A DNA stretch of 64,000 nt from Fibrobacterota bacterium (lineage in GTDB: Bacteria; Fibrobacterota; Fibrobacteria; UBA11236): NCBI GenBank assembly GCA_028287465.1, contig JAQBPO010000041.1:1-64000 (forward strand), in the 5' to 3' direction. The notes beneath the pieces are model-generated. The model worked only from the letters and a program-made list of their open reading frames with translations. It was not told where the DNA came from and ran no database searches. Below are positions 18,406 through 37,512 of this stretch, piece by piece (the first letter of the stretch is position 1; each line of letters begins with the position of its first letter). The translations under genes and the position numbers were made by a program.

Positions 18406-18468
18406 GGCTGTTAGGTATGGGGGGCCGCTAGTCGCTAGCTGCCACCGCCGCCAGGGACGGACCATTAC

Positions 18469-18843: not shown

Positions 18844-18914
18844 GCGCCCGGACCGATGGGATTGGGAATGCAGCCCGGAATACCGGCCGGACCGGACGCG
18901 TCCCTGGAAAGGAT
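18805..18914. repeat. 20-bp direct repeat across a gene boundary
   Basis: Positions 18805-18824 and 18895-18914 match at 19 of 20 bases; both read DASLER in their gene's frame, one at the end of the unknown gene and one near the start of the methyltransferase gene. It may be a small tandem duplication scar. Confidence 0.6.
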
Positions 18915-19611
18915 AAGGGCGGAAGCTACGTCCTGCCTGCCTCCTACGGCCACCAATGTCTGGTCCAATGATGCGCGTCTGCTGGAGGCCTATCGCAAGC
19001 GTTGCCGCAGGGAGACCGAAGAGATGACCTGCGCCGCCCAGGCCGCGGAAATCCTGGCGCCCCTGGTGGCACCGGGCGAAACCCTGCTGGATGCCGGTTG
19101 CGCGGGAGGCTATTACCATTGGTCCTTCGAGTCCCGCGGCGTACCCGTGGAGTACCACGGCCTGGACTACACCCCAGAATGCATCGCCTTGGCCCGGGAA
19201 GAGATGGGCTCGGCCGCGGGCCTCCCGGCCGAAAGGTTCATCCCCGGCTCGATCGAAAGCCTGGACCGCGCCTTCGACAATGTCCTCTGCTTCAACGTCC
19301 TCACCCACAACGCCCATTTCGGGAAACCCCTGGAAGCCCTGCTCCGCTGCGCCCGCAAGCGGATCCTGATCCGCGAATCCCTCGGGGACGCCTTGAGCGT
19401 CGACTTCCGCGCGGACGCCTTCATCGACGAGGGCAAGCGCCACCTGCGCACCTACTTCAACACCTACCCCAGGGTGGAAGTGGAACGCCTGATGGACGAG
19501 GCGGGTTTCACCGTGACCCGGATCCGCGATCGGCGCACGGGGGACGGCACGGAAACCGTCTGCGGCGTGCCCGCGCATTGGCGCATCCTGCTCGGGGAGA
19601 AGCGCCGGTAG
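18856..19611 (+). CDS. Class I SAM-dependent methyltransferase
   Basis: 251 aa. SAM motif I is LLDAGCAGGYY (about 77-87), followed by YHGLDYTPECIALA (acidic loop) and FDNVLCFNVL in place of motif II. The first 45 residues are unusual and the start is not certain. Its codons 14-20 (DASLERIR) repeat the end of the preceding gene in both DNA and protein. Located between the unknown small gene and asnB, it probably methylates the glycan or a sugar intermediate. Confidence 0.75.
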   Translation: MGLGMQPGIPAGPDASLERIRAEATSCLPPTATNVWSNDARLLEAYRKRCRRETEEMTCAAQAAEILAPLVAPGETLLDAGCAGGYYHWSFESRGVPVEYHGLDYTPECIALAREEMGSAAGLPAERFIPGSIESLDRAFDNVLCFNVLTHNAHFGKPLEALLRCARKRILIRESLGDALSVDFRADAFIDEGKRHLRTYFNTYPRVEVERLMDEAGFTVTRIRDRRTGDGTETVCGVPAHWRILLGEKRR

Positions 19612-19619
19612 GCGCGGCC

Positions 19620-21452: not shown

Positions 21453-22585
21453 GATATTGCGTACGATGCATCCTGCCGGACACGCGGCCCAACTTGGTTC
21501 TCGGTCCGGACGGCGTCTGCAATGCCTGCCGCAACCACGGCACCCGTCCCTCCATCGATTGGAAAGCCCGCTCCGCCGCCTTCGCGAAGGTGGTGGAAAC
21601 CGCCAAATCCCGATCGGAAGGGTACGATTGCCTGATCCCGGTCAGCGGGGGAAAGGACAGCACCTGGCAGGTCGTAACCTGCCTGGAGCATGGGCTGAAG
21701 CCGCTCGCCGTGACCTGGAAGACCCCGGGCCGGACCTCCATCGGGGAGAGCAACCTCCGGAACCTGATCTCCCTGGGCGTCGACCATATCGATTACTCCA
21801 TCAGCCCCAAGGTGGAAGCGGCGTTCATGATCGAGGCGCTCCGGCGCTTCGGCGATACGGCCATCCCCATGCATATGGCGCTTTTCAACATCCCCCTCAA
21901 GATCGCATCGCGGTTCCGGATCCCCCTGGTCGTATGGGGCGAGAACTCCGCCTTCGAATACGGTTCGGATGGGGAGGAGAACCTGGGCTTCAAGCTGGAC
22001 GCCGCCTGGCTGCGGAAGTTCGGGGTCACCCAAGGCACCACGGCTGCGGATTGGGTCTCGGACCGGATCTCCGGCAAGGATCTGACGCCCTACTTCGGTC
22101 CGGGCGACAAGGAGATGCAGGAGAACGATGTCGCCGCCGTGTTCATGGGATATTATTTCCCCTGGGACCCGGAAACCAGCCTTGCCGTGGCCTCGGCCCA
22201 TGGCTTCCGCCCCCGTGCGGAAGGGCCGCTCACCGGCTATTACGACTATGCGGACATCGACGACCACTTCATATCCATCCATCATTGGCTGAAATGGTAC
22301 AAGTTCGGCTTCACCCGCCTGTTCGACAACCTGTCCCTGGAAATCCGCAACGGCCGCATGACCCGGGATAAGGCCATCGGAGAGGTGCGCCGGCTGGGAA
22401 GCCAGAAGCCGGACGCCGATATCGCGCGGTTTTGCGATTTCGCCGGCATCGACATCGCCGAATTCCACGCCATCATCGAAAAGTTCCGGAATCCCGCCGT
22501 TTGGACGCGGACCGCCGGCGGAAGCGCGGCGGAAGCGCCCTGGATGATCCGCGATTTCCTGGTCCCGGATTGGCCCTGGGCCTGA
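21449..22585 (+). CDS. N-acetyl-sugar amidotransferase, PseA/WbpG type
   Basis: 378 aa. The start CVRCILPDT and later GVCNACRNHG provide four Cys for a zinc site; the ATP-binding PP-loop is IPVSGGKDST (about 63-72). Further landmarks are LAVTWKTPGRT and VVWGENSAFEYG. These match the family that turns a sugar N-acetyl group into an acetamidino group, with ammonia normally delivered by HisH/HisF-like partners. No such partners are visible in the window; the adjacent AsnB is the only glutaminase nearby. Coupled to asnB by an ATGA overlap. This is the end of a gene run before a new promoter. Confidence 0.82.
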   Translation: MRYCVRCILPDTRPNLVLGPDGVCNACRNHGTRPSIDWKARSAAFAKVVETAKSRSEGYDCLIPVSGGKDSTWQVVTCLEHGLKPLAVTWKTPGRTSIGESNLRNLISLGVDHIDYSISPKVEAAFMIEALRRFGDTAIPMHMALFNIPLKIASRFRIPLVVWGENSAFEYGSDGEENLGFKLDAAWLRKFGVTQGTTAADWVSDRISGKDLTPYFGPGDKEMQENDVAAVFMGYYFPWDPETSLAVASAHGFRPRAEGPLTGYYDYADIDDHFISIHHWLKWYKFGFTRLFDNLSLEIRNGRMTRDKAIGEVRRLGSQKPDADIARFCDFAGIDIAEFHAIIEKFRNPAVWTRTAGGSAAEAPWMIRDFLVPDWPWA

Positions 22586-22631
22586 ATCGGCCCCGGAACG
22601 GGCGCCACCTACGGGCAGGCGCCGTCCCCGG

Positions 22632-22661
22632 TTGCCCCGCGCATGCCCGGAGTTCTACAAT
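22632..22661 (+). promoter_or_regulatory. Sigma70-type promoter for second half of the glycan cluster
   Basis: TTGCCC (22632-22637), 18-base spacer, TACAAT (22656-22661). It lies in the 110-base gap before the methyltransferase gene at 22697, whose start is preceded by AAGGAG about 12 bases upstream. Confidence 0.55.
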
Positions 22662-22696
22662 ACAGATGCGAAATCGTTAAGGAGCAGGATAACACC

Positions 22697-23446
22697 ATGG
22701 AATACGCCAAACCTCCCAAGGACGTCTGGGAAGCCTCGTTCAAGGAACAGATCGCCAAGGGCGCCTACAATACCTCCCCCGTGGAGTCGCTCGTCCGCAC
22801 CGCGGCCTACCATATGCGGGACCGCCATCCGGACGGGGATTACTCCAAATTGCATTTCCTGGAAATGGGGTGCGGCGCCGGTCCCAACCTCAAGTGGGCG
22901 GCGGAAAAGGGAGTCAATATCAGCGGCGTGGACATCTCCACCACGGTCCTGGAGCTTTGCCGCAGGAACCTGGTGGCCGCCGGTTTCGAAAAGAAGATCG
23001 TCAAGCTGGTCGAGGCATCGGTGACGGATGTCCCTCTCCCGGACGCGTCCGTCGACGGGATATTCGAGTCCTGCGTGTTCCAGCATCTGGACAAGAAGGA
23101 TCGCGTCAAGGCCTTCTCGGAGGTGCGCAGGCTCCTGAAGCCCGGCGGGGCCTTCTTCGGGAACATGCTCGATTCCCGGCACGAAGTGTACCAGATGAAC
23201 AAAGACAAGACCCTCCCGAGCGATCCGGGCACCTTGCTGCTGGAACAAGGCGGCGCGAGCTTCTACCTGACCAACCAGGGCCTGACGCATTTTTACAGCC
23301 GCGAGGATCTCGACGAGCTGCTGAAGGGATTCAGCGTGATCGACCCCTCCCAGACCATCTATTACCTGCCCAAGTTCGAAGCGGCCAAGCGCGGGTACAA
23401 AGAACCCTACATGCAAAGCATGTGGACGGTCTACGCCGTTAAATAG
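22697..23446 (+). CDS. Class I SAM-dependent methyltransferase
   Basis: 249 aa from ATG 22697 (AAGGAG at 22679-22684). SAM motif I is FLEMGCGAGPN (about 53-63), the acidic loop is GVDIST, and the motif around DASVDGIFESCVFQHL then VRRLLKPGG is typical of Methyltransf_11. The C terminus (YYLPKFEAAKRGYKEPYMQSM) is unlike any group I can name. It has its own promoter and is the first gene of the block that contains the second AsnB-like protein. A sugar methyltransferase is the likely role. Confidence 0.82.
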   Translation: MEYAKPPKDVWEASFKEQIAKGAYNTSPVESLVRTAAYHMRDRHPDGDYSKLHFLEMGCGAGPNLKWAAEKGVNISGVDISTTVLELCRRNLVAAGFEKKIVKLVEASVTDVPLPDASVDGIFESCVFQHLDKKDRVKAFSEVRRLLKPGGAFFGNMLDSRHEVYQMNKDKTLPSDPGTLLLEQGGASFYLTNQGLTHFYSREDLDELLKGFSVIDPSQTIYYLPKFEAAKRGYKEPYMQSMWTVYAVK

Positions 23447-23461
23447 GGGAAAGGGGATCCG

Positions 23462-25321
23462 ATGGCGAGGCTGGCGGGGCAATGGACGGATGAAGGGGGC
23501 GCCGACGGCGCGCAGGATGCCGGGAACGATCCGGTATGCCGGGCCGCCGCGGGTTATGCCGCCAGGATGGGTTGGAAGATCCGCGCCCTCGGCAAGGATA
23601 AGGTGCGCATGGCCTGCGCGGCGCCGGACCTGGCGGATTGCGACGAGGTCGGCGGGCTCCTGATCGCGATCGACGGCATGTTCTACAACGGGGAATTCCC
23701 CGCGGGCAGGCAAGGGGAAAGCGGCGTCTTCGCGGATCTCTACCGCAAGCACGGTTTCGAAGGTGCGGTGAAAAAGGTCAACGGCGATTTCAGCATCGCC
23801 CTGTACGATCCGGGAACGCGCGAACTCTGGCTGGCGCGGGATCGGCTGGGCACCCGGCCTATGTATTACGCCTTCAAAGGCGGCCGCTTCGGATTCTCCT
23901 CGCGCCCATCCTTCCTCCTCCGCATGCCCGGCGTCTCCCCCGCTCCCCGCAAGGCCTTCCTGGGCATCTACGGCGGGAGCCATTACCGTTATATCGACAA
24001 CGATATCGATCGTTCCGCGTATGAGGATATCCTGCAACTCCCCTTCGGGAGCTTCCTGCGTTTCGACGGCCGGGATTGCAAGGTGGGCCGGTATTGGGAC
24101 CTGGAGGAACGGCCGGATTGGGCCGAGCCGGAATCCGTCCTGGCGGAAAAATACCGGGATCTGTTCCTGGACGCGGTCCGCCTGCGCATGCGGCGCGTGG
24201 ATCGCCCGGCCTTCACCCTTTCGGGCGGCATGGATTCCTCTTCGGTATTGGCCGCCACCGTAAAGCTTTCCGGGAAAAAGCAGATCGCGTTCTCCAGCGT
24301 CTACGAGGACAAGACCTACGATGAATCCGGGGAGATAGCCTCCATGCTCCCGGGGTACGTGGACAAATGGATCCCGTTCAGCATCGGCACCCCGGACGTG
24401 TGGGCCCTGGTGGACCGGATGGTGGAGGCGCATGATGAGCCGGTCCTGACGGCAACCTGGCTGTCCCACTTCCTGCTCTCCGAAGAGGTGGCCAAGCAGG
24501 GTTACAAGACCCTGTTCGGGGGGTTGGGCGGGGACGAATTGAACGCCGGCGAGTACGAGCATTTCTTCCCGTTCTTCGCGGACCTGATGAAGGCGGGACG
24601 GACCGCGGATCTTTCCGCCGAGGTGGCGATGTGGGTGAAGTACCACGACCATCCGATCTTCAAGAAGGATTACGGGGTGATGGAAGCCACCGTAAAGCGC
24701 ACCGCCGACCTGTCCCGCCAGGGCATCTGCCTGCCGGATCGCGTGCGCCTGGAGCGTTACGCCTCGGCCATGAACAGGGACTACTTCGACCTGAAGGCTT
24801 TCCAGCCGATCATGGATCACCCTTTCCAAAGCTACCTGAAGAACCGGCTCTACCAGGACATGACCCGCGAGACAATCCCTTGTTGCCTGCGGGCCGAGGA
24901 CCGCCAGACGGCCGCCTTCGGCCTGGAGAATTGCACGCCCTTCTTCGATCACCGCCTGGTGGAGTTCATGTACCGCGTGCCCGGGGACATGAAGATCCGC
25001 AAGGGCGTGACCAAGCACCTGCTGCGGGAGGCCATGACCGGCGTGCTGCCGGAAGAGACCCGCACGCGCACCAAGAAGGTGGGCTGGAACGCCCCCGCCC
25101 ACAAATGGTTCAGCGGCGCGGGGCTGGAAAGGCTCAAGGACATGGTGCACGACAAACGCTTCAAGGAGCGCGGCATCTACGACATTAAGGAAGTGACGCG
25201 CCTGCTGAACGAGCATGAGGACATCGTGGCCAACGGCAAGGCCATCGACAACCACATGATGTTCTTCTGGCAATTGGTCAACATGGAGACCTGGCTGCGG
25301 CGGCTGGATGCCGGAGCTTAG
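23462..25321 (+). CDS. Asparagine synthetase-like protein without glutaminase nucleophile
   Basis: 619 aa. The synthetase domain is intact, with SGGMDSSS (PP-loop, about 259-266), GLGGDELNAGEY and ENCTPFFDHRLVEF. The N-terminal domain still has the fold (FYNGEF, LARDRLGTRPMYY) but begins MARLAGQW and not MCG, so the Cys2 that releases ammonia is absent. It should therefore use free ammonia, take another acyl acceptor as in beta-lactam-synthetase-like relatives, or act as an amide-bond ligase. It overlaps the GT-B-like gene by 14 bases. The start at 23462 follows AGGGGAAAGGGG. Confidence 0.8.
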   Translation: MARLAGQWTDEGGADGAQDAGNDPVCRAAAGYAARMGWKIRALGKDKVRMACAAPDLADCDEVGGLLIAIDGMFYNGEFPAGRQGESGVFADLYRKHGFEGAVKKVNGDFSIALYDPGTRELWLARDRLGTRPMYYAFKGGRFGFSSRPSFLLRMPGVSPAPRKAFLGIYGGSHYRYIDNDIDRSAYEDILQLPFGSFLRFDGRDCKVGRYWDLEERPDWAEPESVLAEKYRDLFLDAVRLRMRRVDRPAFTLSGGMDSSSVLAATVKLSGKKQIAFSSVYEDKTYDESGEIASMLPGYVDKWIPFSIGTPDVWALVDRMVEAHDEPVLTATWLSHFLLSEEVAKQGYKTLFGGLGGDELNAGEYEHFFPFFADLMKAGRTADLSAEVAMWVKYHDHPIFKKDYGVMEATVKRTADLSRQGICLPDRVRLERYASAMNRDYFDLKAFQPIMDHPFQSYLKNRLYQDMTRETIPCCLRAEDRQTAAFGLENCTPFFDHRLVEFMYRVPGDMKIRKGVTKHLLREAMTGVLPEETRTRTKKVGWNAPAHKWFSGAGLERLKDMVHDKRFKERGIYDIKEVTRLLNEHEDIVANGKAIDNHMMFFWQLVNMETWLRRLDAGA

Positions 25322-26474
25322 CCGGGAAGATCCTTCCCGTCCGGACATCCTGATCTTCCTGGAAGACCCAGGTGCCGCCAACTTCGTCCTCGATTTCCCC
25401 GCCGCCTTCCGCGCGCGCGGCCTCGACTGCCGCCTGGCGGCGATGGGCCCTGCCCTTGGCTTCCTCGCTGAACGCGCCGTGGATTTTCTGCCCCTCGCCG
25501 GGGCCGCGTCGGCGGTGGAGGCTTTGGAACGTCTCCGCCCCTCGCTCGTCGGCCTGGGCACGGCGGATCGGCCCGATGCCCTGAACCTGTCCCTGGCGGA
25601 CCATTGCCGCGCCTCGGGCATCCCCTCGATCGGGTTGGTGGACGGATACGGGAACCTGGGACGGCGTTTCGGCGGCGCCTCCGGGAATCCCCTGGCGCAC
25701 GCCCCGGACTGGATCCTGACGCCGGACGCGAGGTCGCGTGCCGGTTACCTGGCCTACGGGTACGATCCCGGCCGGGTCCTGGACCTGGGCCATCCCGCGC
25801 TGGAGAAGGTGGCGTCGGAAAGGGAGCGGTTGTCCGCCCTGGATCGCCCCGCCCTCCGCTCGCGGCTGTTCCCGGCCGCGCCCGGGAACGCCCTCATCAT
25901 CGTATTCACCGCGGAAGTCTCGCGGACCCCGGACCCTGCGCAATACCGGCGGGATGCCGACTATACCCTCCATGGCAGCGGTCGGTTCCAGGGGCGCACG
26001 GAAATCGTGCTGGAGGAGGTGCTCGACGCCTTGGACGCCCTCCGCGCCTCCCCGGGCGGGCCGCTCCCCTTCGTGGTCCTGCGCCTGCACCCTAAGAACG
26101 ACCCTGGGGAATTCACACCCTTCCTGGGCCGCATCGGCCAGGTGAGCCGGGGCGGATCCGCCCATGAACTCGTATTCGCCGCGGACGCCGTGATCGGCAT
26201 GACCACGCTGTTGCTCCTGGAGGCCGCCTATCTCGGAAAGCCGATCCTGTCGGTGGTGCCCCGGGCTTCGGAAGCGGAATGGCTGTGGACCATAGGCGAA
26301 GGGATTACCCCCTGCGCGACCACGCGGGCCGGCGTGGCCGCGGGAACGGCGGCCTTGCTGGCCTCGGCCGCCTCGCCGGATCGGTCCCGGAAGGCCGCGC
26401 CGCTCCCCGATCCGCGCGGGGCCCTGGACCGCTATGTTGGCTTTTTTGAGGCGCTCCTCCGCGATCGCAGATAG
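25308..26474 (+). CDS. GT-B-like protein, possible glycosyltransferase or epimerase relative
   Basis: 388 aa. Two Rossmann-like halves can be seen. The first holds ILIFLEDPGAANFVL and GLVDGYGNLGRRF; the second holds VLRLHPKNDPGEF, AADAVIGMTTLLLLEAAYLGKPILSV, which resembles the donor-binding half of GT-B glycosyltransferases and UDP-GlcNAc 2-epimerases. No exact family was recognised. In nonulosonic-acid pathways a hydrolysing 2-epimerase is expected and none is otherwise visible, but the sequence fits a sugar or polysialic-type transferase equally well. Starts inside the preceding gene's end and is followed by an inverted repeat. Confidence 0.6.
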   Translation: MPELSREDPSRPDILIFLEDPGAANFVLDFPAAFRARGLDCRLAAMGPALGFLAERAVDFLPLAGAASAVEALERLRPSLVGLGTADRPDALNLSLADHCRASGIPSIGLVDGYGNLGRRFGGASGNPLAHAPDWILTPDARSRAGYLAYGYDPGRVLDLGHPALEKVASERERLSALDRPALRSRLFPAAPGNALIIVFTAEVSRTPDPAQYRRDADYTLHGSGRFQGRTEIVLEEVLDALDALRASPGGPLPFVVLRLHPKNDPGEFTPFLGRIGQVSRGGSAHELVFAADAVIGMTTLLLLEAAYLGKPILSVVPRASEAEWLWTIGEGITPCATTRAGVAAGTAALLASAASPDRSRKAAPLPDPRGALDRYVGFFEALLRDRR

Positions 26475-26646: not shown

Positions 26647-28836
26647 ATGCGACCCTCCATCACCCTCATAAGGGTAAGGAACGACGGCGTTCCCGAAGAC
26701 CCGGCAAGCCCATTCCTGCGCGGCTTCTCCGCCGAGTTCGGCTCCGGCACGCAATTCCTGGAAATGCCCTATCCCGCCTACCATAGCGCCAGGGATTTCG
26801 CCCTCGACTTCCTCGATGCGATGTCCAAGGCGCGCAATGAATGGATCTACGTCATGCCCGACCTCGCCAACCCGGACGCCCGCGCGCTGGCCGACGTGGT
26901 CGAGCGGTTGGCCGCCGCGCAGTCCCAAGGGATCGCGGGCGCGGTGATGGCGGCCCGCATTTCCCTCCCGGACGGAAAGGAAGGCCGTTTGTTCACGGAT
27001 GGATTCACCCTCGACGCCATGGAATCCGGCAAGGCCGAGCATCCCTCCCTGGGCGATCCCTCCTGGCTGCTGTCCTTCTTCGTGATGAAGGCGTCCTTCG
27101 CCCGTTCCCTGGCGGAGGAGATGGTCCGCGCGGTCGATCCCGTGCCCGCCGTCCTTTCCTTCCTCGCCGCGGAAAAGGTCACGGCCCTCCTGAAGCAGGG
27201 GTTGTTCATGCCCATCGCCGAGGGAACGCTGTCCCTGGATGCGCCCCGGATCCCCGACGCCATCGCCACGCGCGCCTTGGCCGATTTCGAAGCGAACCGT
27301 TGCGATGATTCCCTCAAGGCGCTGGATTATCTCCGCTTCGCCTGGGGCGCGAACCCGGCTCTCGATCTGCATCGCGCCGTGCTCGCCGCGAAGATGGAGC
27401 GCTATTGGCTTTCCGGGCATATGATCCGGACCTTCCTGCAGAACAACAAAGGCAACGAGCACGGCCTCAAGCTGGCCGAAGCCCTCAAGACCCGCAAGGA
27501 CCAGACCGCCACCGGGTACGCGGCCGCCGCGCCCTTGTTGGATGCCGTCGACGCCGCCGCGGAAACCGATGGCGAGAAGAGGCTCTTCGAACTCGTGCAC
27601 GGCATGTACGAACAGGCCGTCATCCTGGAACTGGGCGACTTCCCCCTGCGCTCCACCGTGGCCATGGCCCTTGCCTGCCAAGGCACCGCGAAGAAGGTCG
27701 TGACCCTGTCCCCCTTCCGCGCCCGCAACGGCCGATTGGCCGAGTGCGGACGCGGCATCGATATCTGGAAGTCCGCCGTCAACCGTTATAACCTGGAACC
27801 CCATGCGGAAGCCTCGGTTTCCATGCGCGAGCGCCTGCGTTCCTGGGGCGACGCTCCCAAGCCCGATCTGGTCTACATCTCCCTCTACGACAACGATTCC
27901 TTCCGCGAAGAGATCGAGGCCGCGTTCTCCCTGCTCAAGGAAGGCGGAATCCTCATGGTCGAAGGCGCCGCCGCCGGCCGTCCCGCCGCCTGGAAATTCT
28001 GGATCGAATCGGCCGAACCGGCCCTGGCCGATAAGGGGCGGGACGGGATGTTGTCCTGGGGACGGAAGACCCTGGCGCCCTTGGGCGGGATCAAGCCGCC
28101 CGTCACCCTGCCGGAATTGTGGCGCCGCTCCCGCCTGCCGGAACCGCTGGAACGCACCATGGTGACGTTCGAGCGCTTCCGCAACGCCTTCACCCTCGCG
28201 CGCATCGCGGATATCCGCAAGCTGCCCGGCGCCATCGTGGAATGCGGCGTCTGGAAGGGCGGATGTTCGGCGTCCATGATGCTCGCGGTCCAGGAGACCG
28301 GCAGCCGGCGGGAACTGTGGGCTTTCGATTCCTTCCAGGGCCTGCCGCGGCCCACGGAAAAGGACGGGACGCGGGCCATCCAGAAAAGCGAGGAATGGGG
28401 GGGCGGGGGCTGCGAGGCCACCGAAGAGGATTTCCGCGAGACCCTGTTCAAGATAGCCGGTCTCAAGGACGAGAACATCCATATCCGGAAAGGCTGGTTC
28501 CAGGACACCGTGCCGCCGGCCAAGCACGAGGTGGGGCCCATCAGCATCCTGCGCCTGGACGGGGACTGGTACGATTCCGTCCTCGTCTGCCTGGAGCACC
28601 TCTATGACCAGGTGGTGCCGGGAGGGTACATCCTCATCGACGATTACGGTTGTTGGGAAGGGGCGCGCAAGGCCACGGACGAATTCCGCGCCAAACGGGG
28701 CATCAGCAGCCCGCTCATCACCACCGATTACGACGAGCGTTATTGGATCAAGCTGGACGAAAAGGAATCCTGGAAACCCGCCGGGACCGCGCGCGATTTC
28801 GCGATCGGGAACGGGAACGGACAAGGCGCCCGCTAG
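26647..28836 (+). CDS. Multidomain protein: GT2-like segment, helical segment, degenerate methyltransferase, TylF-type O-methyltransferase
   Basis: 729 aa from ATG 26647 (GAAGGGAGA upstream). Residues 1-200 resemble the second module of the 1687-aa protein (KARNEWIYVMPDLANPDARA, FFVMKASFARSLAEEM), perhaps an altered GT-A domain. A helical stretch (200-320) leads to a Methyltransf_24-like domain (ILELGDFPLRST, about 324; SLYDNDS in place of the metal site), which looks catalytically degraded. Residues about 500-720 are a TylF/macrocin-O-methyltransferase-like domain with ECGVWKGG, WAFDSFQGLP, LRLDGDWYDS and LIDDYG, complete with metal-binding Asp residues. Expected role: O-methylation of a cluster sugar. 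The same modules recur in the next two large genes. Confidence 0.78.
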   Translation: MRPSITLIRVRNDGVPEDPASPFLRGFSAEFGSGTQFLEMPYPAYHSARDFALDFLDAMSKARNEWIYVMPDLANPDARALADVVERLAAAQSQGIAGAVMAARISLPDGKEGRLFTDGFTLDAMESGKAEHPSLGDPSWLLSFFVMKASFARSLAEEMVRAVDPVPAVLSFLAAEKVTALLKQGLFMPIAEGTLSLDAPRIPDAIATRALADFEANRCDDSLKALDYLRFAWGANPALDLHRAVLAAKMERYWLSGHMIRTFLQNNKGNEHGLKLAEALKTRKDQTATGYAAAAPLLDAVDAAAETDGEKRLFELVHGMYEQAVILELGDFPLRSTVAMALACQGTAKKVVTLSPFRARNGRLAECGRGIDIWKSAVNRYNLEPHAEASVSMRERLRSWGDAPKPDLVYISLYDNDSFREEIEAAFSLLKEGGILMVEGAAAGRPAAWKFWIESAEPALADKGRDGMLSWGRKTLAPLGGIKPPVTLPELWRRSRLPEPLERTMVTFERFRNAFTLARIADIRKLPGAIVECGVWKGGCSASMMLAVQETGSRRELWAFDSFQGLPRPTEKDGTRAIQKSEEWGGGGCEATEEDFRETLFKIAGLKDENIHIRKGWFQDTVPPAKHEVGPISILRLDGDWYDSVLVCLEHLYDQVVPGGYILIDDYGCWEGARKATDEFRAKRGISSPLITTDYDERYWIKLDEKESWKPAGTARDFAIGNGNGQGAR

Positions 28837-28868
28837 GGCCCGGGAACGCGGAAGGATCGGAAGCGCGC

Positions 28869-31800
28869 ATGGCAGGCAAGAAGGTTTTGATATTCGCTCC
28901 CTATGGGGCCTGGATGGTCCATCACCAATTGGATGCGGTGATCGGGGCGGCGCTGGCGCACCGGGGATGCGAGGTGATGGTCGTGCTTTGCGACGGTTTC
29001 CTGCAAAGCTGCCTGATCGCCGGAAAGCCCCCGAGCCCGGATTTCTGCAGGGCCTGCGCGTTCACGGGCGAGAAGGTCTTTTCGAGCATGGGCGTGAAGA
29101 TCGTCCAGCTCCGGAGCCTGGCGACCGACGAGGATCGCGAAATCGCCGCCGCCTTCTCGCAATCGGCCGATCCCGCGCGCATGGGGGAAGTGCGGTATGA
29201 GCGCTATCCCCTGGGGAAATGGTGCCCCCCTTCCCTGCAGGGTTATTTCGCCACCGCCGATTTCCCCCTGGGCCAGGAGTGGGCCGTGAAGGCCATCCGG
29301 GACCAGTTCTCCAACGGCGTGCTGCTGGTCCGCACCCTGAACCGCCTGATGGATCGGTTCCGGCCGGACCAGGTGTTCTCCTACAACAGCACCCATTACT
29401 ATTACCGCATCGCCTCCGAACTGGGCAAGGAGCGGGGCTTGCCGGTGCTTGTCCATGAACGCGGCCACCTCAACGACAGCTTCACCTTGCTGGACGGGGA
29501 AAGCACCAATGCCAACCAGGGGCGGTTCGAGGCCTACAAGGCCTGGGAGGACGTCCCGCTCACGGAAGCCGAATGCCTCGAGGTGCGCGACTATTTCCGG
29601 GAGCGCGAAGAAGGCAAGAACGGCTTCTCGCAATTCTATTCCTTCAACAGCCAGGCCGAAGGCGTCCGCCGGACCCTGCGGATCCCGGAAGGGGCGCCCA
29701 TCCTGGCGCTTTTCGGCTCTGGGGATCGCGAACTGGGGGCTTTCGAAACGGTCCAGCGCAAGACCTTCTCGGGGCAGCTGGACTGGATCCGCGCGACGGC
29801 GGAGATATGCAGGAAACGCGGATGGTACCTGGTGATCCGGCACCATCCCAGCAATGTCATGAAGAACCTGGTGAATTTCCCCTTCATCACCGGGCTCGCG
29901 GAGTTGAACCGGGAAATGCCCGATTGCGTGCGCGTGGTGATGCCCCACGAGAAACTGACCTCCTACGCCATCCTGTGGAACGCGGACGGAGCGGTGACCC
30001 ATTTCAGCACCATGGGTTCCGAAACCCCCACCCGCGGCGTGGTGGGAGTCTGCGTGGGCGATTCCCTCTACCAGCCTTTGGGCGTGGAATGGGCGGGGTC
30101 GAGGGAGGATTACGAGAACGCCCTGGTGTCCAGCGTGGAAAAGACCCGGAACTTCGGGCTGGCCCACCTCCGGCGCGCCTATCGGGGGGCGCATTACGTG
30201 GTTTTCAAGCTGGGCTACAAGTTCAAGAGCTTCGGGATCCGCGATGTGTTCGCCCCTGAAATCCGGGTGACCAGCCTGGCCGAATTCGACCGCGGCAAGG
30301 ATCCCATCCTGGACCGCGTCTGCGACTATGTCATGGAAGGGAAACCGCTGCTTCCCGTTCCCGGTCCCTCGGACAAGGGCCGGGACGATGGCGAGGAGCG
30401 GGCCTTCCTGGAAGGGGAATTACGGGACGTGCAAGCCAGGAGGCGGGCCGTCAAGGCCGCTTCCCGCGCGGAAGGTCCGTCCGGAGGACCCTTGCTCACC
30501 GTACTCATCGCAGGGGGCGGGGACCCATCGGGGATCCGCGGGAAAAGCCTGGCCCGCAGCCGGGAAAAATCCCTGGAGCGCATCGAAGTCGGATTCGATC
30601 CTTCCGGGGACTATGCCGGCCTGTTCGGTTCGCTGCGTACGGAAGCCGAGCGCGCGCGCGGCCGCTATCTATACATCGCCCTGCCGGGAGTGGACGTCAA
30701 CGAATCGGTTTTTTCCGATTCCATCGATTTCCTGGAACGGGAAGGGAACCGGCAGGTGCCGGGGATCTCCTGGGGAGCCTGGCTGGGAGGCCCGGACGGA
30801 AAACTTACCGGCGAGCTTTTCACCGAAGCCAGGCCATGCCAATCCTTCGAGGACGCCATCGCGGCGCTGCCCTCCATGGCGGATCCGATGGTGCAGTTCC
30901 CCTTCATCGTGATGCGGAAGGAGTTCTTCTCCGACCTCATCGGGTGGCTGGAAGCCATGGCCGGATTCGACCCGAGGCAAATCGCCGCGACGCTTTTCAA
31001 CCTGATCCACGTCCCGAAGGCCGAAGGAACGTTCCACCGCATGAGCGTTCCCATGATCGCCATCTACCCTGAAGCGCCCCCGGCGCCGAACGAAACCACG
31101 GCAAAGGAGCCGGCAATGAAGATCCCGTCCGCCCATTCCCCGCATGCGACCCCTCAGGCCAAGGCCGACAAAGCGCCTGATCCGGCCATCCTGACCGTAA
31201 GCCCCGAAGAACTCAAGGCCCGGTTGGAGAAGGCGGCCACGGCATTCTCGGCCAATCCTTCGGATCTGGAAGCGGGCCTGGACTGCGCGGACCTGCTGGC
31301 CCGCTTGGGCGAGGGGGAAGGTTCCCGCCGCGTATTGCGCGCCCTGCAACAACGCCATCCCGATGAACCGCGCATCAAACCCATGCTGGACGGCGTGGAT
31401 TGGAAGGCCCGGCAAGGCCTGGCGGGCGTGGTCGAATGGGGCCTGCGCGGCAGGGGTTACCAGGACCTGCGCGAAAAGCGGACCCTCGATTCCTACGCGG
31501 ACGCCAAGCCCTACGTCGAATCCGTTCCCGGATGGATGCTGGACGGCCAGGAGCAATACCTCTTCGACAAGGTGAAATCGCTTCCGGACGGCGCCGTCAT
31601 CCTGGAAATGGGGGCGGACCGCGGACGCTCCACCAGCGCCATGGCCCTCGCCTGCAAGGGCACGAACAAGCGCATCTTCTCCATCGATACCTTCGCGGGC
31701 AATGACGGCATCATGGGCAAGACCTATGACTTCTACCATGAATGGCATGGCAACCTCGCGCGCCTGGGAGTCGATCAATACGTAACCGGGGTGCAGGGCT

Positions 31801-33932
31801 ACACCTTCGACGTCCTACCCGCCTGGAACACCAAGATCGATTTCGCCTTCATCGACGCCTCCCACGAATACATCGACGTTCTGAACGATTTCAGCCTGAC
31901 CTATCCCCATGTCAAGGAAGGCGGATGGATCGCGTTCCACGACGTGGAATCCGGCTGGCCGGGACCTTGGCGGGTATGGCTCGATTTCGGCATCCCCATG
32001 CTGGTCCAGCATCAGACGGTCGCGAACCTGGCCTGCGGCCGCAAGGCCGTCACCATGCCCTTGCGCCGGGACTTCAAGGACGGCGTGGCCTTTTCCTTCG
32101 CCAGGCATTGGATAGCCGAATTGAAAGCCTCCTGGGACCCTCAGGCCAGGGCCTTGTCCGCCGAGCTCCAGTGCGGGATGGATTCCCGCCCGGGGGAAAG
32201 GCAAAGCATGGATAGGGCCCGCGAGGCCGAACGTTCCGTCAAGGCCATGCCCGATTACCTGAAAACGAATCTCCGCAACATGATCCTGAAGGACGCCTTC
32301 CTGGACGGATGGCTGCATTACTGGCAGGGACTCGTCCTCGAGGCGGAAAACAAGGGCCCCGAAGCCGACAAGGAATTCCGCGAAGCCCTGAAGGTATCCT
32401 ACCCGGCGTCCAGGCACCTAGTGGAACCGCATCTGCGGGGAGCCGAGCCATCGAAGCCGCAACCCATCCGCGCCGAAGCCTGGTTCTCCTCCCGGCTCGC
32501 CGGTTCCCGCGTGGTCCTGGAATACGGCTCACGGGAAGGGACCCTGCTGCGCGAGCTGCCCGGCGAATCCAAGATCGGCATCGAGCCCGATGTCGGGCTT
32601 TGCAAGCGCGCTTCCCTGGAAGCGGGCATAGACGCGGTCAACCGGGCTGCGGACCTGCCCGATGCGTGCGCGGACGCCATCGTATGCGATCGCGCCCTGG
32701 AACGGGATCCCGCGCCCCTCCGGACCCTGGCATCCCTCCTTCCGAAATTGAAGCCGGGAGGAATGGCATTCTTCACGGTTTCCGCCTTGCATGGCGCGAA
32801 GCCGGCGGCTTCGCCATCCTCTTCCCCTTCCCTTTATGCCTGGACCCAGGATACCTTGCGGAATCTTTTCACGGCCGCCGGATTCGCGGTCGCGGATACC
32901 GGGTTCGCCGCCGCGGACGGTTCCGCCGCATCCAACGGATCCGCGGAATTCATCACCATAACCGCCGGACCCGCCGTCGACCGGCCCGCATCCGCCGCGA
33001 AAGGCCCGGATTGGGCCATGGTCCCCGCCGCGATCGGCGGATCGAATGCGGTTTCCAAGGGGCTCGATCCCCGCGACATCCCCGTGGCGCTGGTCGCCTA
33101 CAACCGCCCCGAACATACGCGGCAGGTGCTGCGGGCCCTCTCTGACAGGGGCATCCGCAATCTCCACATCTTCCTGGACGGCGCCAAGGGCAACGGGGAC
33201 GAGCAGTCCGTGCGCGAGACCCGCAAGTTGGCGGAATCCGTCGATTGGATCCGCCCCGAGATCCATACCGTGGATCGGAACCGCGGACTGGCCAAATCCA
33301 TCGTGGCCGCGGCCGACCTCCTGTTTTCGGAGCATGAACATATGGTGCTCCTCGAGGACGATTGCGTTCCCCAGAAGCATTGCTTCGACTTCATGGCCAA
33401 GGCCCTGGACAAATACCGGGACGATGAGAAGGTCTTCGGGATCTCCGGATACAGCGTGCCCATGACCCCGGACCTGCTCGCGCGGTATCCCTATGACGCG
33501 TACTTCTGCCCGCGCATAGGCAGTTGGGGATGGGCCACCTGGAAACGCGCCTGGCGCCTCATGGAAACGGATATCCTCACCGCCTGCCGCAAGGCGCTGG
33601 ACAAGGGCGTGGACCTGGACCAGGGAGGCAACGACATCCGTCCGTCCCTGGAAGGGCTGCTGCAGGGAACCGTCAAGGACGTGTGGACGCTCAACTGGGT
33701 ACTGACCGTCTACCTGCACGGAGGGCAGTTCCTGTATCCCATGGTCTCGCACATAGACAATATCGGAATGGACGGAACGGGCGTGCACTGCGGCAAGACC
33801 GACAGGTACCAGACGGTCCTGGCGCAAGCCCCGGCGACGCGTTTCCCGGATCGGATCGCGACCGATCCCGGCGTCATCGCGCGCTTCCGGAGCTTCTACG
33901 ATCAGCCCGCGTACCAAAGGGCCGGCGCATAA
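28869..33932 (+). CDS. Giant multidomain glycosyltransferase/methyltransferase protein
   Basis: 1687 aa from ATG 28869. In order: (1) residues 1-535, GT-B/capsule-transferase-like (KVLIFAPYG, VHERGHLND, VTHFSTMGSETP about 373); (2) 541-737, GT2-like degraded module shared with the 729-aa protein; (3) Pro/Thr/Ala linker and helices 740-900; (4) about 905-1060, Methyltransf_24-like (ILEMGADRGRS, FIDASHEY intact); (5) helices to about 1190; (6) about 1210-1365, Methyltransf_11-like (VVLEYGSREG, degenerate motif I); (7) 1400-1687, GT-A sugar transferase (VALVAYNRPEHT, LLEDDCVP, SWGWATWKRAW). A strong ribosome-binding site and ATG lie inside at 31116. It probably builds and methylates part of a surface glycan. 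Confidence 0.78.
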   Translation: MAGKKVLIFAPYGAWMVHHQLDAVIGAALAHRGCEVMVVLCDGFLQSCLIAGKPPSPDFCRACAFTGEKVFSSMGVKIVQLRSLATDEDREIAAAFSQSADPARMGEVRYERYPLGKWCPPSLQGYFATADFPLGQEWAVKAIRDQFSNGVLLVRTLNRLMDRFRPDQVFSYNSTHYYYRIASELGKERGLPVLVHERGHLNDSFTLLDGESTNANQGRFEAYKAWEDVPLTEAECLEVRDYFREREEGKNGFSQFYSFNSQAEGVRRTLRIPEGAPILALFGSGDRELGAFETVQRKTFSGQLDWIRATAEICRKRGWYLVIRHHPSNVMKNLVNFPFITGLAELNREMPDCVRVVMPHEKLTSYAILWNADGAVTHFSTMGSETPTRGVVGVCVGDSLYQPLGVEWAGSREDYENALVSSVEKTRNFGLAHLRRAYRGAHYVVFKLGYKFKSFGIRDVFAPEIRVTSLAEFDRGKDPILDRVCDYVMEGKPLLPVPGPSDKGRDDGEERAFLEGELRDVQARRRAVKAASRAEGPSGGPLLTVLIAGGGDPSGIRGKSLARSREKSLERIEVGFDPSGDYAGLFGSLRTEAERARGRYLYIALPGVDVNESVFSDSIDFLEREGNRQVPGISWGAWLGGPDGKLTGELFTEARPCQSFEDAIAALPSMADPMVQFPFIVMRKEFFSDLIGWLEAMAGFDPRQIAATLFNLIHVPKAEGTFHRMSVPMIAIYPEAPPAPNETTAKEPAMKIPSAHSPHATPQAKADKAPDPAILTVSPEELKARLEKAATAFSANPSDLEAGLDCADLLARLGEGEGSRRVLRALQQRHPDEPRIKPMLDGVDWKARQGLAGVVEWGLRGRGYQDLREKRTLDSYADAKPYVESVPGWMLDGQEQYLFDKVKSLPDGAVILEMGADRGRSTSAMALACKGTNKRIFSIDTFAGNDGIMGKTYDFYHEWHGNLARLGVDQYVTGVQGYTFDVLPAWNTKIDFAFIDASHEYIDVLNDFSLTYPHVKEGGWIAFHDVESGWPGPWRVWLDFGIPMLVQHQTVANLACGRKAVTMPLRRDFKDGVAFSFARHWIAELKASWDPQARALSAELQCGMDSRPGERQSMDRAREAERSVKAMPDYLKTNLRNMILKDAFLDGWLHYWQGLVLEAENKGPEADKEFREALKVSYPASRHLVEPHLRGAEPSKPQPIRAEAWFSSRLAGSRVVLEYGSREGTLLRELPGESKIGIEPDVGLCKRASLEAGIDAVNRAADLPDACADAIVCDRALERDPAPLRTLASLLPKLKPGGMAFFTVSALHGAKPAASPSSSPSLYAWTQDTLRNLFTAAGFAVADTGFAAADGSAASNGSAEFITITAGPAVDRPASAAKGPDWAMVPAAIGGSNAVSKGLDPRDIPVALVAYNRPEHTRQVLRALSDRGIRNLHIFLDGAKGNGDEQSVRETRKLAESVDWIRPEIHTVDRNRGLAKSIVAAADLLFSEHEHMVLLEDDCVPQKHCFDFMAKALDKYRDDEKVFGISGYSVPMTPDLLARYPYDAYFCPRIGSWGWATWKRAWRLMETDILTACRKALDKGVDLDQGGNDIRPSLEGLLQGTVKDVWTLNWVLTVYLHGGQFLYPMVSHIDNIGMDGTGVHCGKTDRYQTVLAQAPATRFPDRIATDPGVIARFRSFYDQPAYQRAGA
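31103..31118 (+). promoter_or_regulatory. Internal ribosome-binding site and start codon
   Basis: AAAGGAG (31103-31109) stands 6 bases before an in-frame ATG (31116), inside the giant gene at a linker between modules. Independent initiation would give a second protein of 938 aa (31116-33932) containing the methyltransferase and GT-A modules only. The linker position suggests a fusion point of two former genes. Confidence 0.5.
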
Positions 33933-34900
33933 TGGAGAAGGCGCAAGCCACGAGGCCGGACGGCACGGGGGCGGACGCCTCCGCGAACAAGGACTCCGTC
34001 GTCTGTTATTGCTTCAACAAGACCCGGGGGGATCTGGACGCCTCCTACAAGCGCTGCGGTTCCCTGGCCGGCGTCCAGGCCGAGACCCGCGTGGGCACCA
34101 ATTGCGGGGGATGCCGGCTCTTGCTGGAGTCCATGTTCGGGGAGGCCCCGGGAGACATCCTGGCGATGCGGGGGAGCCCCCTTACCAACAGCCGCTTCTG
34201 CGTCAAACCGGGAACGCGCATCATGAAGGGCTTCGTGGCCGCGGACCACGAGTTGGATACCCTCATCTACGCTTCCAACGGCGTTCCGCCCCAGTTCGGG
34301 AACCAGGACACCACCATCCCAGTGGAATACGCCCTTCTGGACGCGAACGGCAGGCGCGTCACGGGCCGCCGCTTCGAATGGAGGACGGGAGAGACGTTCT
34401 GCTTCGACACGTCCAAGGTCGACATCCCCAGGCCCCTGTACGGCATGTTCCTGTTCCAGATCGGCCGCGAGAACTACGGGGCGTCGCGGTTCAACCTGGT
34501 ATGGACGAACGGCGTTTCTTCATGCTCGACCCACGAAGTCAACGATTCGGGCCGCCCTTCCGTGGTCCTCCCCCTCTTCGCCGACCGGGCCTTCCTGGAA
34601 GGCCCGAACCGCGTCTTCGTTTCCGTCCAGAACCCCCACCCCAGGCCCATCAGGCTCCTTTTCAGCCTGTTCGACGAAGCGAACCGCCCGATCGCGGAAT
34701 TCCCGATCGCCTTGGATCCCGGTTCCACCCGATGGCTGGACGTGAACCGGGAATTCTACGGCCCCGCTCTCGCCCGCGCCCCGTCGGCGCGCGTGGCCAT
34801 GCGCATCGCGAGCGATCCCGTGGATGTATCGCAATCGCCCACCATCTATTTCTTCTTCCACAACCGGAATACGGGGATATGGACGGCAAACCACCTATGA
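33932..34900 (+). CDS. BFD-like [2Fe-2S] domain fused to beta-sandwich domains
   Basis: 322 aa. Residues about 22-72 fit a bacterioferritin-associated-ferredoxin (BFD-like) [2Fe-2S] domain: VCYCFNKTRGDL gives C-x-C, and TNCGGCRLLLE gives C-x2-C, 33-35 residues later. Residues 90-322 are predicted all-beta, probably two sandwiches, with FFFHNRNTGIWTANHL at the end. No signal peptide. Family known for Fe-S electron transfer, but its place in a glycan cluster is unexplained; a redox sensor or assembly factor is guesswork. The ATG overlaps the preceding stop (TAATG) and its TGA overlaps the next ATG, so it is coupled to the giant protein and to the beta-sandwich protein after it. Confidence 0.65.
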   Translation: MEKAQATRPDGTGADASANKDSVVCYCFNKTRGDLDASYKRCGSLAGVQAETRVGTNCGGCRLLLESMFGEAPGDILAMRGSPLTNSRFCVKPGTRIMKGFVAADHELDTLIYASNGVPPQFGNQDTTIPVEYALLDANGRRVTGRRFEWRTGETFCFDTSKVDIPRPLYGMFLFQIGRENYGASRFNLVWTNGVSSCSTHEVNDSGRPSVVLPLFADRAFLEGPNRVFVSVQNPHPRPIRLLFSLFDEANRPIAEFPIALDPGSTRWLDVNREFYGPALARAPSARVAMRIASDPVDVSQSPTIYFFFHNRNTGIWTANHL

Positions 34901-35658
34901 TACCCGACCCCGAATCCATGTCCATGGTCATGCTCGGCGGATACCTGCCCCCGACGGATCAATATTCGACCTTCATCCATCTTTTCCCGGGGAACAACGC
35001 CCACGCCCCTTGGGGCACATCGGGCCATTTCCATTTCGAGGTCACCGTATACGTGGGCGGCAAGGAAACGGGAAGGATCGCGAGTCCCATTTGCGACGAG
35101 AAGGGCAATATCCGCGTAGAGCTGAACCCGGCCGCCGAGGGCCCGGGGAAGGCCGTCAAGGGGATGTTCGTCGTGCACAGCCACCACGCCAGGGAAATCC
35201 CCGTGGAGGTCTACGCTTTCCACATCCACAAGGCCACCGGGACCTACGTGTCGTGCAATATCACGCCGTTCATCGGCGATCAGCTCTACCCGGCCGTCCA
35301 CAGCGACCAGATGGAGAATACCCTGTTCTGGCCGGGCATCATCGCGGACCAGGACAATGATCCGTATTCCATCCTCGTCAATCCGTATGACGTGGCCATG
35401 GGATACCAGATCCACCTCATCACCCCGGAAGGCGAAACCGTCCACGGGGAGAGCCTCAAACTGCGTCCCAAGCAATCGATCGAGCATTCCATCTGCGGCA
35501 TGTTCGAACGGTACGAAGCGGATATCCGCAAGCGGAACGGGAGGTATTCCTTTTGCGTATCCTCCCAATACAAGCTCGTCACCTATTTCATGCTCAAGAA
35601 CAAACCCCATCAGGTGATCGCCATGATGGATCACCTCCACAATTTCTGCCTGGCATGA
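34897..35658 (+). CDS. Predicted beta-sandwich protein, partner of the [2Fe-2S] protein
   Basis: 253 aa. Start set by the ATGA overlap at 34897; an in-frame ATG at 34879 is less likely. No signal peptide, membrane segment or known domain was recognised. It shares layout with the beta part of the preceding protein (DPYSILVNPYDVAMGYQIHL resembles NRVFVSVQNPHPRPIRLLFS). HFHFEVTVYVGG, VVHSHHAREI and the end MMDHLHNFCLA give several His that might bind metal, which is speculation. Followed by a 69-base gap and then the next methyltransferase gene. Confidence 0.65.
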   Translation: MIPDPESMSMVMLGGYLPPTDQYSTFIHLFPGNNAHAPWGTSGHFHFEVTVYVGGKETGRIASPICDEKGNIRVELNPAAEGPGKAVKGMFVVHSHHAREIPVEVYAFHIHKATGTYVSCNITPFIGDQLYPAVHSDQMENTLFWPGIIADQDNDPYSILVNPYDVAMGYQIHLITPEGETVHGESLKLRPKQSIEHSICGMFERYEADIRKRNGRYSFCVSSQYKLVTYFMLKNKPHQVIAMMDHLHNFCLA

Positions 35659-35727
35659 ATCCATTCCGGGACGGACCCAAGCAGCGGTGCGCGGCCCCTG
35701 GCCGCCCCGAACCCAGAGGAGACTCCC

Positions 35728-37512
35728 ATGGATGCGGCTGAACGCGACGTGGCCCGGATCATGGAAAGCCTGAAAAGCTGGAAGCCCTCGCCGGCTCCCG
35801 GCCATGCCTCGTACTCCGGATTCGCCGGCCTGGTGGAATCGGCGCCGGGACGGCTTACCCAGGCCCAGGGCCGGCTGCTTTTCGAAAAGGTGCAATCGCT
35901 TCCGGATGATGCGCGGATCCTGGAAATCGGATGCGACGGCTGCCGCTCGACCCTGGCCATGGCCTTCGCGTGCGCCGGAACGGGGAAACGGATATTCGCC
36001 ATCGACCCTTTCGAGCGGGAACGGCCGGAACACCCGGGCCAGGGTAACATGCTGGATACCCTGGCCGAATGGCGCGGCATCCTGGCCGGCCACGGGCTGG
36101 AAGCCTATGCGGAACCGATCAAGGGGCATGGATTCGACGTCCTTTCCGCCTGGCAGGGGCCTCCCCGGTTCGACCTCGTCCTCATGGGTGGCGCTCCGGG
36201 ATACGTGGACCTCGCCAGGAACCTCCGCCTCGCCTATCCCATGGTCCCGGCGGGAGGATGGATGGCCATCCGGGATGCGGAACCGGAAAACCCGGGCCCT
36301 TGGCGGGCCTGGCTGGAATACGGAAGGGCCCTGCTCTCGGATCATGAAACGTCCGGGTCCCTCGCTTGCGGAAGGACCGGCCCGGACAGGCCGTTGCACC
36401 GGGCGGATCGCGAACATGCCGATTTCAGCTTCGCCCGCGAATACATGCTGCACCTCGCCGATGCATCGGGCAAAGGCGCGGCGGCCCTTGCCGAAGCGAT
36501 GAAGAGGAGCCTGGAAGGCAGGTACGGAACGGAGGCGGAAAGGGAGCACGTCCATTCCGCGGAAATCGCCCTGGGAACCGGGGACGGCGACCCCGTCTTC
36601 CGCGTAACCCTGCGGTCCATGCTTTCGAGGGAAGCGCGCACGGACGGGCACCTGCTTCTCTGGAACGCCATGACCCTCATGGGGGAAGCCCGTTGGGAGG
36701 ATGCCTATCGGTACCTGCTGGAGTCCACCCGGGTCTCCCGTCCCGTTCCCGTGGAACGCATCCGCGAATATTGCGCCGTGCTGCGGGAAAACCTGGGGGA
36801 TGCGGCCGCGAAACTGCCGGAACCCGGAGCCCCCAACTTCGGATCGGTCGCCGCGGACGTTACGGGAGGGGCATCCGGTTCCGGCCATTACGGGCAGGAT
36901 TATTTCAATTGGCAGAAGCGCATCGGCGCCTTCGGTGGAGTCGCGAACCTTTTCAAGTTCAGGGAATTCATCCGTCCTTCCGACACCGTTATCGACCTGG
37001 GAAGCGGCGGGGGATTCCTATTGGGGAATGTCCGTTGCGCGCGGAAGATGGGCGTGGAGATCAATCCGTCGGCGCGCCGGGACGCGGCATTGTTCGCCGG
37101 GATCGACACCGTGGAACGGCCGGAGGACCTGCCCGATTCCTTCGCGGACATCGTCATCTCCAACCATGCCCTGGAGCATATGCACTCGCCCCTGGAGGTC
37201 CTCAGGACCTTGCTGCCCAAGCTCAAGCCGGGCGCCAGGCTGGTGCTGGTGGTTCCCAACGATCCCCCCCAGCAGGAATGGGACCCCGGGGACATCAACA
37301 AGCATTTGTTCACCTGGAATCCCATGACCCTGGGCAATCTGGTGGCGCTGGCGGGATACAAGGTCCAGAAGGTGGAGGCCATTCAACACCAATGGCCGCC
37401 GAATTTCACCGAAGTGTACGCCAGCCTCGGCGAAGAAGGTTTCCATCAGGCATGCCGGGATCAGGCCAAGCGGACCGGAACGTACCAAATCCGGGTGGTG
37501 GCCGTACGCTAG
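35728..37512 (+). CDS. Two-methyltransferase protein, stand-alone relative of the giant protein's middle
   Basis: 594 aa. AGAGGAG precedes the ATG. Residues about 45-215 copy the Methyltransf_24-like module of the giant protein (ILEIGCDGCRST, GKRIFAIDPF, PWRAWLEYG, SLACGR), but the metal-site motif DASHEY is replaced by GGAPGY, so the domain is probably inactive. A helical region (220-365) follows, then a Methyltransf_11/23-like domain (VIDLGSGGGFLLG about 420, SNHALEHMHSP, LVVPND) that looks active. It is the last plus-strand gene of the cluster and converges with the two minus-strand genes after it. Confidence 0.78.
   Translation: MDAAERDVARIMESLKSWKPSPAPGHASYSGFAGLVESAPGRLTQAQGRLLFEKVQSLPDDARILEIGCDGCRSTLAMAFACAGTGKRIFAIDPFERERPEHPGQGNMLDTLAEWRGILAGHGLEAYAEPIKGHGFDVLSAWQGPPRFDLVLMGGAPGYVDLARNLRLAYPMVPAGGWMAIRDAEPENPGPWRAWLEYGRALLSDHETSGSLACGRTGPDRPLHRADREHADFSFAREYMLHLADASGKGAAALAEAMKRSLEGRYGTEAEREHVHSAEIALGTGDGDPVFRVTLRSMLSREARTDGHLLLWNAMTLMGEARWEDAYRYLLESTRVSRPVPVERIREYCAVLRENLGDAAAKLPEPGAPNFGSVAADVTGGASGSGHYGQDYFNWQKRIGAFGGVANLFKFREFIRPSDTVIDLGSGGGFLLGNVRCARKMGVEINPSARRDAALFAGIDTVERPEDLPDSFADIVISNHALEHMHSPLEVLRTLLPKLKPGARLVLVVPNDPPQQEWDPGDINKHLFTWNPMTLGNLVALAGYKVQKVEAIQHQWPPNFTEVYASLGEEGFHQACRDQAKRTGTYQIRVVAVR

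Follow-up and report, generated by a model that had tools for sequence, protein, structure and literature searches.

How did three neighbouring large genes of a Fibrobacterota bacterium come to be built from the same parts, and what do their products make? The genes lie in a window of 64,000 nucleotides, the whole stretch of DNA analysed here (GenBank assembly GCA_028287465.1, contig JAQBPO010000041.1, positions 1 to 64,000), which is part of an 85-kb contig from the 5.8-Mb genome of a flagellated host. They encode proteins of 729, 1687 and 594 amino acids (aa), which we name A729, B1687 and E594. Purine-rich stretches precede all three starts, a context consistent with translation, and the GC content by codon position is of the coding type in each gene. 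By sequence comparison, the three proteins share colinear blocks of methyltransferase (MT) and, in two of them, glycosyltransferase (GT)-type domains, in which different copies have lost the catalytic residues of different domains (Table 1).

Shared blocks around a colinear core

Comparison of the window proteins with BLASTP and phmmer revealed significant shared blocks in every pair. A729 and B1687 have two in common (A59–157 with B593–692 in the front domain, and A275–476 with B866–1061 in the MT24 module), A729 and E594 one (A275–474 with E10–217), and B1687 and E594 two (B875–1181 with E28–341, and B1211–1342 with E416–547); the last pair matches with 33% identity over 520 aa, linker included (E = 4e-70). 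With 200 shuffles of B1687 as the chance control, the real pairs scored 80–247 bits, whereas the top shuffle scores were 30 bits for A729 and 26 bits for E594. Segment by segment, Z-scores against the shuffles were 12 for the front GT-like domain and 32 for MT24 between A729 and B1687, and 30 for MT24 between A729 and E594; between B1687 and E594 the linker reached 15 and the second methyltransferase 33.

A sequence-only reading of the locus, made from the letters without database searches, had held that the three proteins are assembled from the same parts in different order. The recurrence of the parts is borne out by these scores; the shuffling is not, as every shared block keeps one order in all of its carriers. 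Of the helical modules that it listed as shared, the linker is indeed common to B1687 and E594, and the helical stretch preceding MT24 had no detectable sequence homology between A729 and B1687 (Z 0.5). Of its landmark motifs, each of the three proteins contains ILE.G....RST and AC.GT in slightly varied spellings (the proposed MALAC reads MAFAC in E594), whereas PWR.WL..G and LACGR are confined to B1687 and E594, the corresponding residues of A729 reading AWKFWIES and LSWGRK. Together, these comparisons show that the shared blocks are homologous and colinear, and that the pattern is one of gain, loss and fusion, by addition and truncation, around a common core.

Live and dead catalytic domains

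The solved structures nearest to the modules are mostly of sugar enzymes (MeT1, NovP/MycF, KpsC and POMGNT1). The MT24 module of B1687 is closest to MeT1 (6g7d; profile 5e-7, about 24% identity), the sugar 1-O-methyltransferase of mycobacterial methylmannose polysaccharide (PMC9883506), which is a single-domain enzyme, unlike the multi-domain MT24 carriers described here. Catalytic residues are kept in B1687 (FID(996)..H999 and H1024-D1025), where FIDASH/FHDV align with FIDGGH/IHDV of MeT1, and the MeT1-aligned residues are also kept in cyanobacterial MT24 copies and in two orthologues from congeneric species (G004 and G005). They are lost in E594 (MGGAP, IRD) and A729 (ISLY, VEG); we call a domain dead where the expected residues are lost in its sequence. 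The MT24 of E594 still matches Pfam at 1.9e-9, and the AlphaFold2 model of E594 (predicted local distance difference test, pLDDT, 74) matched MeT1 in Foldseek with a probability of 1.00 and a target template-modelling (TM) score of about 0.73.

The second methyltransferase domain shows a different distribution of losses. In E594 it matches Methyltransf_23 (PF13489) at 6.8e-18 with 65 bits, and its S-adenosylmethionine (SAM) motif I reads DLGSGGG at 423–429. The B1687 copy reads EYGSREG at 1218–1224, with Arg replacing the middle Gly, and is a borderline match to PF13489 (40 bits, cut-off 27). The motif is IGRNAS in G004 and VGRDAS in G005, and in neither does the second domain match Pfam. Degeneration is thus complementary among the copies, a feature that the sequence-only reading had missed. 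The contrast is clearest between E594, with its first domain dead and its second alive, and G004 and G005, in which the first is alive and the second dead; B1687 is intermediate. In A729, the C-terminal domain matches TylF (PF05711) at 3.6e-48 with 164 bits (cut-off 23), with NovP (1.4e-30) and MycF (about 1e-27) as matches in the PDB, both of which it resembles over its whole length, although NovP and MycF are stand-alone antibiotic enzymes. The acidic metal-site positions are kept (LRLDGDWYDS and LIDDYG, against LRMDGDLYES and VIVDDY in NovP).

At the N terminus of B1687, the family profile matches KpsC at about 0.005 over the C-terminal half of the GT-B fold, and relatives of this domain match Capsule_synth (PF05159) at 2e-9. 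It has the HP motif (RHHP, 324–327) in common with KpsC and WbbB, and RxHP is invariant in the aligned family. QXXXD, the nucleophile motif needed by the KpsC and WbbB β-Kdo (3-deoxy-D-manno-oct-2-ulosonic acid) transferases (PMC10148158), is absent, the matching strand reading FGSGDRE in B1687 and SSxDE in its relatives. Because the HP motif is present but QXXXD is absent, we class the domain as KpsC-like, not as a demonstrated β-Kdo transferase. It differs further by four cysteines (residues 41, 48, 60 and 63; 28869–30302) that are invariant in the six KpsC-like GT-B relatives aligned; these may form a metal or iron–sulphur site, which the available part of the KpsC literature does not describe. 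At the other end of B1687, a GNT-I/POMGnT1-like GT-A domain matches POMGNT1 (5ggf) by profile at 1.2e-7, and the E-D-D of its VLLEDDC (1493–1499) is invariant among aligned relatives.

The front domain common to A729 and B1687 has no Pfam match, and a family search of 151 phylum genomes returned no relatives. The sequence-only reading had called it GT2-like, a label that found no Pfam or profile support: comparison with GT2 gave an hhalign probability of 1%, and a profile search of the PDB yielded only spurious matches, such as acetolactate synthase. A DXD metal motif was not found in the domain, the residues near the expected position (MPDLAN and LPGVDV) not being conserved between A729 and B1687. 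The Foldseek matches listed for its model (pLDDT 51) are of GT-A/nucleotidyltransferase type, with E about 1e-2 and TM ≤0.4, which suggests, at low confidence, a GT-A-like superfold.

Genomic setting and distribution

A729, B1687 and E594 lie at the end of a nonulosonate (sialic-acid-like sugar) cluster with NeuA-, NeuB-, PseC- and WbuX-like genes (Table 1). The NeuB-type synthase matches PF03102 at 3e-64; both this and the PseC-like protein score under the NCBIfam equivalog cut-offs, which keeps the assignment at nonulosonates in general. The scan covered part of the open reading frames (ORFs) of the cluster, and in these it recognised no flippase, polymerase or polysaccharide exporter. The 388-aa protein directly upstream of A729 may, judged by eye, be a GT-B-type transferase, and the C-terminal part of the 307-aa BFD protein has no family assigned. 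Downstream of E594, two adjacent paralogues on the minus strand (37543–38451 and 38462–39298; 302 and 278 aa, 44% identical) have no Pfam match and look by eye like proteins of the SAM-methyltransferase fold (LECGVNKG, FDDNYPE). An inward-rectifier-type potassium channel gene (9174–10187; IRK_C 1.8e-17) lies close to where the glycan cluster begins, and type IV pilus/type II secretion genes adjoin it (47194–57969, minus strand; MshEN/T2SSE ATPase, secretin and PilM). An ABC ATPase gene, its type not refined further, is found at 50718–51698. The genome has five flagellins; the one that shares this contig, at 81.8 kb, is 44 kb from the three genes.

Table 1. Features of the locus (gene positions in nucleotides of the window; domain positions in residues of the protein named)
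Feature	Position	Strand	Remarks
CMP (cytidine monophosphate)-sugar cytidylyltransferase (NeuA/PseF-like)	10832..11602	+	PF02348 5.6e-25
PseC/LegC-like aminotransferase and NAD-dependent sugar dehydratase	12608..14925	+	below NCBIfam equivalog cut-offs
GNAT acetyltransferase, NeuB-family nonulosonate synthase, formyltransferase	14900..17425	+	synthase at 15652-16668
Polysaccharide deacetylase, two SAM methyltransferases, two AsnB-type amidotransferases, WbuX-type N-acetyl sugar amidotransferase	17412..25321	+	WbuX-type at 21449-22585
388-aa protein	25308..26474	+	directly upstream of A729, same direction; no Pfam or NCBIfam match
A729	26647..28836	+	intact ORF, 729 aa
A729, degenerate GT-A-like	1-200		
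A729, helical	200-285		
A729, MT24-like	286-478		catalytic residues lost
A729, TylF/NovP-type sugar O-methyltransferase	501-701		
B1687	28869..33932	+	intact ORF, 1687 aa
B1687, KpsC-like GT-B	1-480		
B1687, degenerate GT-A-like	541-740		
B1687, TPR-like	780-870		
B1687, MT24	873-1064		catalytic residues intact
B1687, helical linker	1064-1200		
B1687, MT23/11	1205-1365		borderline
B1687, GNT-I/POMGnT1-like GT-A	1400-1687		
307-aa protein, N-terminal BFD-type [2Fe-2S] domain	33977..34900	+	between B1687 and E594; Fer2_BFD 7.9e-9
254-aa protein	34894..35658	+	between B1687 and E594; no Pfam or NCBIfam match
E594	35728..37512	+	intact ORF, 594 aa
E594, MT24	26-220		catalytic residues lost
E594, helical linker	220-370		
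E594, MT23/11	410-550		SAM motif intact

Among 168 phylum genomes, three species, all from a single genus, carry the MT24–linker–second methyltransferase didomain. A scan of genome contigs with alignment A1 gave only three loci. In the two congeneric species, the orthologues are stand-alone didomains of 600 aa (G004) and 540 aa (G005), with MT24 55–57% identical to that of B1687. Neither the full A729 or B1687 architecture nor an orthologue of A729 or E594 turned up elsewhere in the phylum genomes sampled. The simplest reading of how the three MT24 copies arose, though not a proven one, is that they were duplicated within the genus; the tree leaves the A729 and E594 copies unplaced, with long branches and weak support.

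Beyond the phylum, the MT24 module alone was found in six cyanobacterial genomes, in four of them within giant GT/MT proteins of 2214, 994, 1228 and 1472 aa (L021, from Cyanomargarita calcarea, 2214 aa; L022, L087 and L088). Their MT24 is 46–50% identical to that of B1687 and intact; they differ from B1687 in partner domains (GT2, GT1 and GT41) and in order, and have no MT24–linker–MT23 didomain. The C. calcarea protein (L021:6591-13235) carries GT2, MT24, GT1 and GT41 domains in a single chain. Within Fibrobacterota, the GNT-I-like GT-A module is common, and other giants combine GNT-I-like, GT1, MT and GT2 domains (L058:6513-10706, 1397 aa), GT-B and TylF (L059:1343-3988, 881 aa) or GNT-I-like, GT11 and GT1 (L060:1517-4375, 952 aa). 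Large modular GT/MT proteins are therefore a recurrent kind, since MT24 recurs in the cyanobacterial giants and GNT-I-like and TylF modules join other GTs in Fibrobacterota.

Close parallels come from flagellin glycosylation. In such loci of Enterobacteriaceae, nearly all GT41 enzymes also carry methyltransferase (AdoMet_MTase) domains (PMC4875605), and type B flagellin glycosylation in C. difficile involves a GT2–methyltransferase fusion (PMC5207246). Like these, the proteins studied here would unite sugar transfer and SAM-dependent methylation in one polypeptide within a sugar-biosynthesis cluster; unlike them, they have KpsC-like GT-B and GNT-I-like GT-A domains, more domains per protein and a flagellin gene 44 kb off. 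A precedent for catalysis split between paralogues is offered by the nematode phosphoethanolamine methyltransferases PMT1 and PMT2, of which one uses its N-terminal and the other its C-terminal methyltransferase domain (PMC10269165); these were also a Foldseek match of the E594 model, though they belong to an unrelated pathway and have only the superfamily fold in common. A literature search on TPR–GT–MT or pseudo-methyltransferase glycan enzymes returned nothing directly on point. The sequence-only reading had recognised no described pathway here, and had named unrelated folds or a common architecture as what would count against it. Fusions and giants of this kind have in fact been described, whereas the exact architectures of A729 and B1687 were seen in no other phylum genome sampled, so that its claim is only partly borne out and the case against it is weak.

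A proposed role in glycan assembly and its rivals

We judge the chances about even that the three genes form the glycan-assembly end of the nonulosonate cluster and serve the transfer and O-methylation of a surface glycan, possibly flagellin-borne, with the dead domains kept. The copies would have arisen by duplication and fusion. B1687 would join one or two sugars and then O-methylate the product through its MT24; its HP motif, also found in CMP-sugar transferases, hints that the donor is a keto-sugar activated with CMP and supplied by the NeuB/NeuA pathway of the cluster. A729 and E594 would add further O-methyl groups, each through its single intact methyltransferase (TylF and MT23, respectively), while the dead MT24 and GT-A-like domains might persist as modules for binding, dimerisation or positioning that keep the enzymes together on one acceptor. 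That acceptor, the weakest step, may be a surface protein glycosylated in the cytoplasm, flagellin for instance: the scanned genes of the cluster included no recognisable machinery for lipid-linked export, and the contig carries a flagellin gene 44 kb from the three genes. Both this function of the dead domains and the identity of the acceptor are inferred. The sequence-only proposal of modular glycan enzymes that pair glycosyl transfer with O-methylation is thus supported by the domains and by the cluster context; for the processivity that it also suggested there is no evidence.

Several observations weigh against this role. The GT-B domain lacks QXXXD, and the front domain is placed among GT-A-like folds by a model of pLDDT 51. 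The 44 kb between the flagellin gene and the three genes hold unrelated ones, for type IV pilus machinery and LptD, and a second NeuB/NeuA locus on another contig (G000:C13:133005-136016) means that the cluster is not the sole nonulosonate source. A search for a Maf-type flagellin transferase (PF01973) was negative, and uninformative, as the model is of archaeal type and matched nothing in bacterial controls either. In G004 and G005, the didomain lies beside DEAD-box helicase or PdxA-like genes, with no recognised glycan cluster, and its role may therefore not be confined to glycans.

The strongest competitor, with roughly one chance in three in our estimate, keeps the enzymes and changes the acceptor, to a lipopolysaccharide O-antigen, an exopolysaccharide or a pilin glycan, with B1687 as a multi-domain polymerising or terminating enzyme like WbbB, whose β-Kdo transferase domain ends the O-antigen chain. 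O-methylation is an established chain terminator in other O-antigens. The KpsC/WbbB-type GT-B with its HP motif at the front of B1687 fits such a role, as does the nearby LptD gene, which speaks for an outer membrane, and the adjoining type IV pilus genes make pilin another possible acceptor. Against it stand the lack of a recognised flippase, polymerase or exporter among the cluster genes scanned, with the ABC ATPase not typed further, and the missing nucleophile motif.

The degenerate domains might instead be decaying leftovers of duplication without a role, which we regard as fairly unlikely. The A729 and E594 copies of MT24 have long branches in the tree (4.4 and 1.78, compared with 0.44 for B1687), and the sampled genomes hold no orthologue of either protein that could show retention. 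Yet no reading frame is broken and GC by codon position is normal, the E594 MT24 retains the methyltransferase fold in its model, and the degenerate second domain has diverged between G004 and G005 with non-synonymous (dN) and synonymous (dS) distances of 0.34 and 1.58 (the latter near saturation), a dN/dS of about 0.22, so that this domain is maintained.

At the other extreme, the three proteins could work in one transfer-and-methylation complex on the nonulosonate glycan, a pseudoenzyme-scaffolded assembly line in which interacting paralogues dock through their complementary dead MT and GT domains; we think this improbable. Less probable still is a small glycosylated natural product as the output of the cluster. 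Antibiotic pathways typically contain AsnB-type amidotransferases, of which the cluster has two homologues, and TylF-type methyltransferases, and NovP and MycF, the matches of the A729 TylF domain, are antibiotic deoxysugar methyltransferases; no polyketide synthase, non-ribosomal peptide synthetase or ribosomally synthesized and post-translationally modified peptide gene was recognised among the genes scanned, however, and the NeuB-, NeuA-, PseC- and WbuX-like genes are surface-glycan genes. Chance or remote likeness of common Rossmann folds has next to no standing: MT24, TylF and MT23 do belong to one superfamily, and the A729 TylF reaches only Z 4.9 against the B1687 MT24, but the long B1687/E594 match through the linker, the Z-scores of 12–33 and the PWR.WL and LACGR motifs outside the SAM site refute it for B1687/E594, as do the scores against shuffles for the A729 MT24.

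GT–methyltransferase fusions and giant GT/MT proteins were known already; the locus is a local variation on them, with A729 and B1687 architectures seen in this genome alone of those sampled and with complementary degeneration among the copies. In a limited literature search, the flagellar and surface glycans of Fibrobacterota appeared hardly studied. If the proposed glycan-assembly role is true, the locus would illustrate a route to large multi-domain glycan enzymes, in which a stand-alone methyltransferase didomain is duplicated beside a sugar pathway and then captures transferase domains, the copies dividing catalysis through loss of different active sites. With each domain present in both live and dead form, it would also provide a clean natural set for probing what dead methyltransferase domains do in glycan enzymes.

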